From contig NC_014364.1 of the NCBI RefSeq assembly GCF_000143985.1, positions 1,798,001 to 1,862,000 of the forward strand: a DNA stretch of 64,000 nt. The letters run 5' to 3'. The stretch is from Sediminispirochaeta smaragdinae DSM 11293. GTDB taxonomy: Bacteria > Spirochaetota > Spirochaetia > DSM-16054 > Sediminispirochaetaceae. Shown piece after piece: positions 35,403 through 47,165 of this stretch. The translations under genes and the position numbers were made by a program. The notes under the pieces were generated by a model. It was not told where the DNA came from and made no database searches. It worked only from the letters and a program-made list of their open reading frames with translations. Numbering within the stretch: position 1 is the stretch's first letter; each line of letters starts with the position of its first letter.

Positions 35403-36664
35403 TAAAGAATTAGCTACTGTCCGGAATCGTGGTGATTCCTTTACCTTTAAGCCCATGCATAAGAAGGCAGATAGTCAATCATCCACCGTAAGGGTGTAGG
35501 AATACACCTGACCCACAGCTCCCTCCCACTTCGATTCATAGGCTGATTCCGTAAGAAAAACCTCCGCCTGGTATACAAACTCCTCAGCTCGGACGCTATC
35601 CTCTTTCCCTCTATCCCAGCCACCACCCCATGTGTCAGCCCCCGCTTCTCATCCTTTCCCCCAACCCGATAGGGCTTCATAAAGTTGTGATAATACCGGT
35701 AGATCTCAAGCCGCTCCAGCATATTCACCGTACTCCTTGCAAACTGTACCGTCTGCCTCACATGATCCGAGTCATCCTTCCGTATCTCCCTGTCAAGATA
35801 ATTCACACTAAAGAGGGGATTACACAGATCCCGAACCCTCTTCGAACTGATCCTGTGGTGCTCTATCATTCCTGCCATCTCTGCCGGTAGCCCCTTCATC
35901 ACCCTTTTGTATTGCGTATGCTCATCGGTATACAACTTCACCCTATCCCTCTCCGATTGCTCGATCAGGGCAAGCGTCTTTGCCACGACATTCTGAAACG
36001 ACTGATAAACACTTCCTCTATAGACCTTTAGCTTCTCTTTGATCACCCTGTTTTTCTTCTTCTGATAGCAGGTCATACGTCCCTTTCTGGTCAGCTGTGC
36101 ATAGTCGGAGAGAAACCAGAACTGGGAGTCTTTTCCTGCCAGGATGTGGATGTTGTTGGGGAGGTACTGGGAACAGACAAAGCTTTCAAAGCCGTCTGCG
36201 ACCAGGTCTTCGTGGAGGTTCATGTCTGAGGTGAGGGAGGCAGAAGAGGCAATGCACTGGTGGGAAAGACGACGGATACGGTCTGAGACGGTGGAGCATG
36301 AGACCTTAAGGATACGGGAGAGGTCTCTGATACCGGAGCTGGTGACGAGGTGAGAGAGGATGGTTGTGTAGGGGAGGTGGAAATGGGTCCAGTAGTCGAT
36401 GCTGAAGGTGCGAGTGGAGAAGGAGAGGTGGCAGGTTTTGCATTTGAACTTTTGGATGCGGGGAGAGGTTTGGGTAGAGTAGGAGCCTGTTCTAAAGAAC
36501 CAGTGGCCTTTTGGAGAGAAGTGGTTGAGGCAATGGGGGTTGGGGCAGAAGGGGGGATGGAACATGGGAAACTCCTTTTTCGTATTGTTCTTACTATAAG
36601 TAACTACGAGAAAAGGAGATTTTATTCATTTTCCACCACGATTCCGGACAGTAGTAAAGAATTA
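35403..36664 (-). mobile_element. intact insertion sequence with 10-bp target duplication
   Basis: The element runs from about 35413 to 36654 (1242 bp) and encodes one transposase. Perfect 21-bp inverted repeats are at 35414-35434 and 36634-36654 (outer end CTACTGTCCGGAATCG). It is flanked by the 10-bp direct repeat TAAAGAATTA at 35403-35412 and 36655-36664, a target-site duplication. The insertion lies 8 bp upstream of the Pho-box-like repeats of pstS and exactly at the stop codon of the neighbouring gene; the duplicated TTA (36662-36664) keeps that stop intact. The family is unassigned; the zinc-ribbon/DDE transposase and long duplication recall IS1-type elements. Confidence 0.9.
35447..36565 (-). 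CDS. zinc-ribbon DDE transposase
   Basis: A 372-residue transposase in one frame. The N terminus has a zinc ribbon (CPNPHC at residues 7-12 and CKTC at 42-45), then a helix-turn-helix (GIRDLSRILKVSCSTVSDRI, about 80-100), then a DDE-type catalytic region with LVADGFESFV (first Asp), KLYTDEHTQY (second Asp) and a candidate Glu in GVVAGIEGKRIASELRS. Codon use is pyrimidine-rich compared with the neighbours, as expected for acquired DNA. AAGGAG lies 6 bases before the ATG. The gene is intact, so the element may still be mobile. Confidence 0.85.
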   Translation of the reverse strand: MFHPPFCPNPHCLNHFSPKGHWFFRTGSYSTQTSPRIQKFKCKTCHLSFSTRTFSIDYWTHFHLPYTTILSHLVTSSGIRDLSRILKVSCSTVSDRIRRLSHQCIASSASLTSDMNLHEDLVADGFESFVCSQYLPNNIHILAGKDSQFWFLSDYAQLTRKGRMTCYQKKKNRVIKEKLKVYRGSVYQSFQNVVAKTLALIEQSERDRVKLYTDEHTQYKRVMKGLPAEMAGMIEHHRISSKRVRDLCNPLFSVNYLDREIRKDDSDHVRQTVQFARSTVNMLERLEIYRYYHNFMKPYRVGGKDEKRGLTHGVVAGIEGKRIASELRSLYTRRRFFLRNQPMNRSGRELWVRCIPTPLRWMIDYLPSYAWA

Positions 36665-44163: not shown

Positions 44164-44198
44164 CCAGACCATTGTACACAAATCAAGGCTTTCGTCCA

Positions 44199-46673
44199 AT
44201 GAAAAGCATCCGCCTGCTTGATCTTTTGGCGTCTACCATCATAATGGATACGATGAAAATCGGGGAACGACTGACGGTAGAGGCTGCTGATTATGCCAGG
44301 AATAGTATAGAAGAGGCGGAGGGAAACGAGGTTTTCTTTGTCGGTTCTTTCAATGGCTCCGGGAAGGTTGAGTTTCTCGAAGCGGTGGCCCGTGGCAACG
44401 AACATGCCGTACCTGCGCTTGCTCCCTTCGTTGAGACCGGCGATGTGGTGATCCACAATCATCCCTCCGGTGTTCTTAAACCCAGTGGCCCCGATCTTCG
44501 CATCGCATCGGAATTGGGTAACCGGGGAATCGGTTTTTATATTATCGATAGTGGTGCCACCAGGGTCTATGCTGTTGCCGAACCTGCCCGGAAACGGAGA
44601 ATCGTTCCCCTCGACGCTGAAAAATTATCGTCTCTCATGACTCCCGGAGGACTTCTGTCTCGTATCTTTTCCGACTACCAGATGCGGGATTCGCAGGTAC
44701 AGATGATGGAACGTATCATCGAGGCTTTCAATAGCGATGAAATCCTTCTTGCCGAGGCTGGAACCGGGGTCGGTAAAAGCCTTGCCTATCTCATTCCTTC
44801 TATAGCCTGGGCTGTGGCCAATGGCGAACGGGTAGTCATCTCTACCGCCACGATCAATCTTCAACAGCAGCTTATTGAAAAGGACATTCCCTTGGTGCGG
44901 CGCCTCGTAAAGGGGGAGGTGAAGAGCGTTCTCGTAAAGGGAAGGGGCAATTACCTCTGCCTTCGTCGTTTTGAAGAGGCTTTGGAGGAGAACTCGCTTT
45001 TTCGGGAAGATACTAGTGAACTGGAAGCGATTCGGAAATGGGTTTCTTCCACGGATACCGGAAGCCGAAGCGATCTCCCATTTTATCCCCTTCGGGAGAC
45101 ATGGGCAAAGGTGTGTTCCGAGACTGATGCCTGCATGGGCTTACGCTGTCGTCATCGCGAATCCTGCTTCGTTTTACGGGCCCGTCGGGAGGCCGCATCG
45201 GCAAATATCCTGGTGGTAAACCATCACCTCCTCTTTTCGGATCTTGCCTTACGTATCGAGGGAGCGGGCTTTGAGGGCGGTGCTGTCCTGCCGGCCTTTA
45301 ATCGGCTTGTTTTTGATGAAGCCCATACCATCGAGCGCAGCGCAACCAGTTTTTTTTCAAGAAGCTACCAGCTTCCCTCTTTGCTCAAACAACTGAACAG
45401 GCTTCGCCGCAGCCAGGGGCGCCGAACCTTTGGTTCGCTGGTTTCCTTACAAAAGCGGTCGACCCGGCCCGAGCTTTTTGAACGGTTCCCCGCTTTTCTT
45501 TCGAAACTGAAAGAAAGTGCCGAGAAACTCGACCAATTGGGCTTACAGCTTCTATCGGGAACAAACTCCTTACGTTGTCAAAGCCTCTCTTCCGATGAGC
45601 TCCGTCAACTCCTGGAGTCGATGGCCCTTGTTCGAAGTGATATCACCGCCCTGATTACCAGGATTGCCGCCGCCTTGGAGAGTGTCGATACCGAGGATGA
45701 TGACCAGGATCTTTTTGAGACCAAGACCATCTTGGAGCGGCTTTCAAACATGGCTTCTCTTCTCGGCTCATTTCGAGAGCTTACAGAGCGCCCCGAATCG
45801 GTATTCTGGATGGAGGTGAGGGGAAGCGGGGAACGACGCTTTGCCGTTTTCAACGAGACCCCCCTGGATATCGGTCCCGTGATGCGGGAGGCGGTATATG
45901 AACCCTTTAAGACATTAATCTGTACCTCGGCAACCCTGACCGTGAACGGACAATTTTCCTTCTGGATGGGGAGGGTCGGCCTCTTCTCTTCCGAGGAACG
46001 ACTTGTGGCCGAAATCTTTCCCTCTCCCTTCCGTTATCGTGATCAGGTACTCCTTGCCCTTCCTACCGACCCTCCGGATCCTTCTTCCCCAGGCTATCAG
46101 GAGTATGTGAATCGTTTTGTCAGGGATGCCATACTGACTGCGGGTGGAAGCACCCTAGTCCTCTTTACCAGCTACGGTATGCTCAACCAAACCTGGGAAG
46201 CCGTGGCACCGGACCTTGAGGCCGAAAAGATCCCTGTTTTGCGGCAAGGGGAGGACGATCGTAGCCGACTCATGAATGCCTTTGTGGGAAATGTCTCGGC
46301 TGTCCTTTTTGCCACCGATTCCTTCTGGGAGGGGGTTGATGCCCCCGGTGATGCTCTACGTATGGTCATCATCTGTAAACTTCCCTTTCGTGTACCAACC
46401 GAACCGGTTCTCCAGGCTCGCATGGAGGCCATCGAGGCAAAGGGCGGAAATCCCTTTTTCATGCTGAGTCTTCCGGAGGCGGCCATGCGTCTGAAGCAGG
46501 GCTTTGGGAGGCTCATGAGAAAGGCCGAAGATCACGGAGTTGTGGCGATACTGGACCCGAGACTGACAAGAAAAAGTTACGGCAAGATTATGCTTGCAAG
46601 CCTTCCCGAGACAGCAGTAAGCCGAAGGGATTCCACGGCTCTCATGGGTCAGATTGAAGAGTTCCTTTTTTAG
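44199..46673 (+). CDS. dinG: JAMM-domain / DinG-type XPD helicase fusion
   Basis: An 824-residue protein with two parts. Residues 15-130 form a JAB/MPN (RadC-like) domain with the complete zinc motif VVIHNHPSGVLKPSGPDLR: His86, His88, Ser96 and Asp99. From about 170 to the end it is a superfamily 2 helicase of the DinG/XPD type: Walker A AEAGTGVGKSLAYLIPS, an iron-sulfur cluster motif with four Cys (CSETDACMGLRCRHRESC), DEAH box RLVFDEAHTIERSA, motif V/VI FATDSFWEGVDAPGD and LKQGFGRLMRKAEDHG. It probably unwinds DNA in repair. The ATG at 44199 is preceded by AAGG; the ATG at 44244 is possible. Divergent from the DapF-like gene. Confidence 0.87.
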   Translation: MKSIRLLDLLASTIIMDTMKIGERLTVEAADYARNSIEEAEGNEVFFVGSFNGSGKVEFLEAVARGNEHAVPALAPFVETGDVVIHNHPSGVLKPSGPDLRIASELGNRGIGFYIIDSGATRVYAVAEPARKRRIVPLDAEKLSSLMTPGGLLSRIFSDYQMRDSQVQMMERIIEAFNSDEILLAEAGTGVGKSLAYLIPSIAWAVANGERVVISTATINLQQQLIEKDIPLVRRLVKGEVKSVLVKGRGNYLCLRRFEEALEENSLFREDTSELEAIRKWVSSTDTGSRSDLPFYPLRETWAKVCSETDACMGLRCRHRESCFVLRARREAASANILVVNHHLLFSDLALRIEGAGFEGGAVLPAFNRLVFDEAHTIERSATSFFSRSYQLPSLLKQLNRLRRSQGRRTFGSLVSLQKRSTRPELFERFPAFLSKLKESAEKLDQLGLQLLSGTNSLRCQSLSSDELRQLLESMALVRSDITALITRIAAALESVDTEDDDQDLFETKTILERLSNMASLLGSFRELTERPESVFWMEVRGSGERRFAVFNETPLDIGPVMREAVYEPFKTLICTSATLTVNGQFSFWMGRVGLFSSEERLVAEIFPSPFRYRDQVLLALPTDPPDPSSPGYQEYVNRFVRDAILTAGGSTLVLFTSYGMLNQTWEAVAPDLEAEKIPVLRQGEDDRSRLMNAFVGNVSAVLFATDSFWEGVDAPGDALRMVIICKLPFRVPTEPVLQARMEAIEAKGGNPFFMLSLPEAAMRLKQGFGRLMRKAEDHGVVAILDPRLTRKSYGKIMLASLPETAVSRRDSTALMGQIEEFLF

Positions 46674-46678
46674 GTGAT

Positions 46679-46851
46679 GTTTTCTTTATTTACTGTTCCG
46701 AATCCTGGTGGTCTGCATACCCTTTTTCCTGTAACAGACTCGATTTAGTGCCGGTGCTTGCTTTTTTTCCATGCTTTCTCCTCCAGGTGGCTACTGGAAA
46801 AGGAATTACGTTCCTCCAACCACCAGGATTCGGAACAGTAGGTTTTCTTTA
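46679..46851. mobile_element. 153-bp MITE related to the insertion sequence at 35.4 kb
   Basis: The element spans 46689-46841. Perfect 22-bp inverted repeats are at 46691-46712 and 46819-46840 (outer end TACTGTTCCGAATCCTGG). They match the ends of the insertion sequence at 35413-36654 in 17 of 20 positions, including TACTGT, AATC and TGGTG. A 10-bp direct repeat GTTTTCTTTA flanks it (46679-46688, 46842-46851), the same duplication length. It has no coding capacity and sits 5 bp after the dinG stop. Confidence 0.85.
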
Positions 46852-46856
46852 CAAAA

Positions 46857-46886
46857 AAAAAGACCGCTCATTTCGAGCGGTCTTTT
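46857..46886 (-). terminator. groES terminator
   Basis: A perfect stem of AAAGACCGCTC with GAGCGGTCTTT and a 5-base loop is followed, on the minus strand, by nine T. It lies just after the groES stop and may also stop transcription coming from dinG. Confidence 0.88.
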
Positions 46887-46901: not shown

Positions 46902-47165
46902 TTAGCCGATAACTGCAAGGATATCGGAAAAACGAAGTAGCAGATGTTCCTCTCCGTCGACTTTGATCTGAGTTCCGGCATATTTGTCGTACATCACCTT
47001 GTCGCCAGCCTTTACCTTGATCGTTTCGTCGTCCCCGATCTCGACAACCACGCCAGTCTGTGTCTTTTCCTGAGCAGTCTGGGGTATGAAAATCCCTCCT
47101 GCAGTCTTCTCTTCACCAGATTCAAGTTTTACCAAAACGCGGTCACCAAGGGGTTTTATCTTCAT
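46902..47165 (-). CDS. groS: co-chaperonin GroES
   Basis: An 87-residue GroES, the lid of the GroEL folding chamber. The N-terminal KIKPLGDRVLVKLESGEEKT, mobile loop GGIFIPQTAQEKTQTGVVVE and C-terminal VMYDKYAGTQIKVDGEEHLL are all present. GGAGGAT precedes the ATG. No groEL is adjacent: the gene ends at its own terminator, so the chaperonin gene must be elsewhere. The upstream region has a standard promoter and no CIRCE repeat. Confidence 0.96.
   Translation of the reverse strand: MKIKPLGDRVLVKLESGEEKTAGGIFIPQTAQEKTQTGVVVEIGDDETIKVKAGDKVMYDKYAGTQIKVDGEEHLLLRFSDILAVIG

Follow-up and report, generated by a model that had tools for sequence, protein, structure and literature searches.

A probable MITE family in Sediminispirochaeta related to an IS1-like insertion sequence lineage

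The window analysed here, that is, the whole stretch of 64,000 nt from Sediminispirochaeta smaragdinae, carries at 46689-46841 a non-coding element of 153 bp with perfect 22-bp end repeats (TIRs). The element, called a MITE from here on for reasons given below, and its neighbourhood comprise the following features (window positions; TSD, target duplication):

44172-46673, plus strand: ORF resembling a helicase, of DinG type by eye, with its 3′ end towards the MITE
46679-46688, no strand: left TSD of the MITE, 10 bp, GTTTTCTTTA
46689-46841, plus strand: MITE, 153 bp, of which 2 nt and 1 nt lie beyond the TIRs
46691-46840: MITE as bounded by its TIRs, 150 bp
46691-46712, plus strand: left TIR of the MITE, TACTGTTCCGAATCCTGGTGGT
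46759-46840, plus strand: right half of the MITE, homologous, according to the family model and the TIR-free profile, to the resident IS at its 5′ (promoter-side) end
46819-46840, minus strand: right TIR of the MITE, exact reverse complement of the left TIR
46842-46851, no strand: right TSD copy of the MITE, GTTTTCTTTA
46858-46886, minus strand: intrinsic terminator adjoining the MITE insertion, towards the minus-strand gene
46902-47165, minus strand: GroES-like gene (by eye) beside the terminator

The span 46679-46851 takes in the MITE and both duplications, and its layout is GTTTTCTTTA, TT-TACTGTTCCGAATCCTGGTGGT ... ACCACCAGGATTCGGAACAGTA-G, GTTTTCTTTA. A first-pass annotation of this DNA had described a 153-bp element with perfect 22-bp end repeats, and the two arms are indeed identical 22-mers when read inward. 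No ORF of at least 90 aa overlaps the element, a transposase gene is absent, and the length lies below the approximate limit of 600 bp for MITEs.

The same window holds a related autonomous insertion sequence, referred to as the resident IS:

35403-35412, no strand: left TSD of the resident IS, TAAAGAATTA
35413-36654, minus strand: resident IS, 1242 bp
35415-36653: resident IS as bounded by its TIRs, 1239 bp
35447-36565, minus strand: IS1-related transposase, 372 aa
36655-36664, no strand: right TSD of the resident IS, TAAAGAATTA

The TIR of the resident IS is TACTGTCCGGAATCGTGGTGAT, with 21-bp ends CTACTGTCCGGAATCGTGGTG. As the first-pass annotation had claimed, the ends of the MITE match those of the IS in 17 of the first 20 positions, the only differences being at positions 7, 9 and 15, and the two elements have duplications of equal length, 10 bp (GTTTTCTTTA vs TAAAGAATTA). 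The 2/1 end spacing is likewise common to both window elements.

About 10 near-complete copies of the 372-aa transposase occur in the S. smaragdinae genome, the genus also has copies, and relatives of it are present in 26 of 98 spirochaete genomes. The NCBIfam IS1 model was matched by all 21 aligned transposases. The window protein, however, scored 30.5 bits, with the cut-off at 100, and this over residues 35-131 only rather than the full length. Since this score is under the cut-off, the putative partner transposase is, as judged from its sequence, called IS1-related and not a member of the IS1 family. TSDs in the IS1 family range from 8 to 11 bp, and the 10-bp duplication of the resident IS falls within this range, whereas its single 372-aa ORF and its TIR (TAsTGTyCsGAATCG...) set it apart from that family. 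No Pfam transposase domain was found in the IS1-related transposases and no related solved structure was found; one transposase scan of genome contigs gave no match. Three of the IS copies are 2.52 kb long and carry an insertion (3935561-3938082, 4161719-4164241 and 4267827-4270348); the one inspected, at 3935561, has an IS3-like two-ORF element within the transposase gene. A clear TSD is missing in 12 of the 13 IS copies of the genome, even though most are about 97% identical, which suggests that their flanks were shuffled via recombination or adjacent deletions. In the stretch upstream of the transposase ATG (window 36566-36625), CTCCTTTTCTCGTA is able to pair with TACGAAAAAGGAG, and this predicted pairing would mask the ribosome-binding site of the transposase. 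Some IS transposases are guarded against read-through by hiding their ribosome-binding site.

The S. smaragdinae genome (G000; a single contig of 4,653,970 bp) contains about 65 full-length MITEs of 147-151 bp, and about 30 MITEs are found in a congeneric genome, G001. The first-pass annotation had proposed searching the genome with the 22-bp end for further copies, and when this was done with the degenerate 22-mer TASTGTTYCGAATCCTGGTGRT, 76 exact matches were obtained against 0 for a reversed-pattern control, while an older TIR type, AATATTGG, gave 41 further matches vs 0 in the control. BLAST with the window element returned 113 matches in its own genome. A TIR weight matrix identified 219 TIRs within 594 kb of extracted DNA and none in the reversed sequence; when these TIRs were paired, the resulting lengths clustered sharply at 148-150 bp. 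A family sequence model built from 54 copies gave 99 matches in S. smaragdinae and 71 in G001, totals that take in IS 5′ ends and fragments; G008 gave a single weak match and 28 other relatives gave none. No convincing MITE copy was found in 29 spirochaete genomes besides the two of Sediminispirochaeta, and plasmid and phage collections held no match to the element. Among 55 aligned copies the pairwise identity has a median of 65% (range 42-97%, maximum 97.3%) and no two copies are identical, yet their lengths are 148 bp (8 copies), 149 bp (44 copies) or 150 bp (3 copies). Length changes are rare, with 15 indel runs vs 296 substitutions. This strict length despite high divergence is the oddest feature of the MITEs, for which MITEAba12, discussed below, is a precedent.

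G001 also carries the window MITE at the orthologous site (C23:10338-10486), the locus being 94% identical over 3 kb and the element itself 88.6% identical. The insertion is therefore old and predates the species split. In total, 27 MITE sites are common to the two species. The flanks of ten unshared copies were joined and then searched in G001, and clean empty sites were recovered for six of them (4559703, 4395155, 4303880, 12814, 1391816 and 133150), in which the match was continuous across the junction and contained a single target copy. This means that those insertions, or their precise losses, were real events. A single copy with no empty-site allele in relatives had been named at the outset as evidence against the MITE reading; the window copy is indeed shared and has no empty allele, but the family is far from being single-copy. 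With many dispersed copies, a target duplication and empty sites at six other copies, the first-pass reading of the element as a MITE holds.

The bases flanking 130 ends reveal a target palindrome, TAAWNWTTA, at -11 to -3. With the TSD register fixed (spacers of 2 nt on the left and 1 nt on the IS-5′-like side, 10-bp duplication), a TSD with at most 3 mismatches was found for 24 of 65 MITEs (37%), compared with 4.4% for re-paired flanks. The fraction was 18 of 40 among copies without a detected counterpart in G001 vs 6 of 25 among shared copies, which would fit a decay of the duplications over time. All but one of the 65 MITEs are intergenic, and a stop codon is often near (median 25 nt). The frequent stop-codon distances of 8 nt and -3 nt follow from the TAA in the target and the TAG at the start of the TIR. 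The sequences give no sign of present MITE activity, the copies never being identical, and the window copy probably moves only rarely now, if at all.

About 20 solo 22-nt TIRs, lacking a MITE interior or a nearby partner, also occur in G000 (C1, among others at 956274, 1028332, 1049782, 1099305, 1187992, 3089756, 3312271, 3685482, 3706317, 3974184, 811142 and 817831). Of the 21 solo TIRs examined, nearly all could be matched to an orthologous site in the sister species, which makes them old. TIR-only remnants seem commoner than uniform deletion breakpoints predict. In-place selection on solo TIRs was considered and rejected: the conservation signal was strong at first, but many of the TIRs had been chosen by exact pattern, and those chosen otherwise showed a weak excess (19/264 vs 64/528 mismatches, p=0.04) that can be explained by the choice of near-perfect TIRs in G000. 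One solo TIR (G000 C1:3706317-3706338) is in frame with an ORF, HlyD-like by eye, close to its 3′ end, and codes there for SVPNPGG, as if the coding region had absorbed the TIR sequence. Mini-elements of 59-76 bp, which consist of two TIRs and a short loop and little more, are found at G000 C1 501569-501630, 4233752-4233810, 3485722-3485787, 3858994-3859057 and 140154-140229.

The relationship between the MITE and the IS lineage extends beyond the TIRs. The 5′ ends of the IS match positions 69-149 of the MITE model. To rule out that this match merely reflects the TIR, IS subterminal DNA was scored against a profile built from the right-half interior with the TIR excluded. The score of the resident IS was 16.4 bits, a value reached by none of 1500 dinucleotide shuffles (best 4.8), and a 74%-identical IS lineage scored 6.5 bits (1 of 1500 shuffles). 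IS 3′ ends gave no score against this profile. The idea that the IS 3′ end gave rise to the left half of the MITE was rejected, the left half being without a score in the profile test. A direct deletion derivative of the resident IS, 147 bp long, is found at 938684-938830; in it the 3′ end is joined to the 5′ end, giving a layout like that of the MITE. Another element, of 87 bp (1710448-1710534), has GAATCC-type TIRs joined to IS 3′-end sequence, and from this composition we read it as a relic of a predicted sister IS, which probably existed and was then lost. The first-pass annotation had expected such a sister element to be still present elsewhere; the 87-bp relic supports the existence of one, but no full-length IS with GAATCC-type ends was found in the S. 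smaragdinae genome. The MITE has probably been moved by a transposase of the IS1-like lineage, and by its sequence it appears mobilisable by a related transposase.

Which transposase this was may be answered in more than one way. It is possible that the resident IS, with its GAATCG ends, mobilises the MITE in trans and that a sister IS is unneeded, since the TIRs match at 17/20 positions, the duplication length and the 2/1 end spacing are the same, the right end is homologous, and about 10 nearly full IS copies are in the genome. Moreover, positions 3, 7, 9 and 21 of the MITE TIR vary within the family anyway. However, nearly all MITE TIRs have CC (or AT) at positions 14-15, where all full-length IS copies have CG (two with CA at one end), and the 87-bp relic testifies to the former presence of an IS-related element with CC ends, so that we regard mobilisation by the resident IS as a serious candidate but not the likely one. 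A non-mobile inverted repeat made by chance or recombination would accord with the lack of an empty allele for the window copy in the sister species; this idea is refuted by the six empty sites, as well as by the approximately 65 dispersed copies and the zero matches in controls, and can practically be dismissed.

The element could also be a fixed repeat of the REP/Correia-like kind, once spread and now kept for a host function, e.g. as a bidirectional terminator, an RNA-stability hairpin or a protein-binding site. The near-invariant length would fit such a role, as would the intergenic location of 64/65 copies, often near stop codons, but the latter proximity is explained by the TAA/TTA in the target TAAWNWTTA. 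At 25 shared sites, substitutions avoid the most family-conserved columns (1.8% vs about 10-13% in variable ones), which could reflect either selection or ectopic gene conversion; conversion among copies predicts the same sparing, and conversion-like tracts were seen. That is, in one orthologous MITE pair (G000 C1:664443-664591 and G001 C3:235003-235151) the differences are clustered in one stretch, and the tract of the G001 copy fits another family member (2 vs 10 differences), suggesting ectopic gene conversion. Furthermore, RNAalifold gives the TIR stem only, and changes in the TIRs comprise 1 compensated case vs 19 one-sided breaks; as these changes are not compensatory, a kept RNA hairpin is unsupported. 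In the interior, a single weak hairpin was all that folding showed (mean Z about -1). A structured RNA was likewise rejected, RNAalifold, windowed folding and Rfam yielding nothing past the TIR stem, with no Rfam match above the gathering score for the MITE. Host selection of this kind thus appears improbable.

We conclude, with a probability of roughly 0.9, that the element is a MITE, i.e. a non-autonomous, non-coding relative of an IS1-like lineage in Sediminispirochaeta. Counting against this reading are the failure to find an intact IS with TIRs of the MITE type, the 12 of 13 IS copies without a clear TSD, the left half with no match to the IS 3′ end and the absence of identical copies. 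The MITE TIRs would be bound either by a DDE transposase encoded by a sister IS whose TIRs are of the GAATCC type or by the resident transposase, if it tolerates three TIR changes. The transposase would then excise or copy the MITE and insert it at a cut staggered by about 10 bp, repair of which would leave the target duplication of about 10 bp. The window copy would have entered beside the terminator, between two convergent genes, ahead of the species split. More speculatively, and rather doubtfully, the length of the MITE and two inner motifs, AAATCCTT near position 50 and GAAAArGAATT near position 115, may be needed for transposition, the element acting as a substrate of fixed size. The spacing of about 149 bp between TIR ends that was held through divergence might be read in this way, and so, just as tentatively, might the 147-bp IS derivative, which would have nearly reached this length independently.

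Correia/NEMIS and RUP-type MITEs are short (about 100-160 bp), intergenic and high-copy elements with IS-related TIRs and a TA target duplication. The present MITE has unrelated ends, involves other transposase families and has a TSD of about 10 bp instead of TA. A closer parallel is MITEAba12 of Acinetobacter, with 90 copies, 90% of which are exactly 113 bp long, the TIRs being most conserved, the centre variable and no orientation preferred; about 40% of copies have TSDs, which are 9 bp and AT-rich, and active transposition has been observed (PMC6382973). Both families are non-coding, share TIRs with a resident IS and have a near-fixed length, but the IS of MITEAba12 is ISAba12, and length and TIR differ. 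The present family, in turn, has about 65 copies in one genome, a much wider divergence and a recognisable palindromic target. Among the papers searched, none was found to describe MITEs in the genus Sediminispirochaeta, and the word MITE is absent from the text of the S. smaragdinae genome paper (PMC3035371). The family is new, but of a kind that is already known and ordinary. The associated spirochaete transposase group is widespread yet falls under the cut-offs of curated family models. The MITEs themselves constitute a natural series of diverged, length-fixed elements, in which the copies of the two species include orthologous, polymorphic and converted ones; such a series is useful for studying length limits and the homogenisation of copies.
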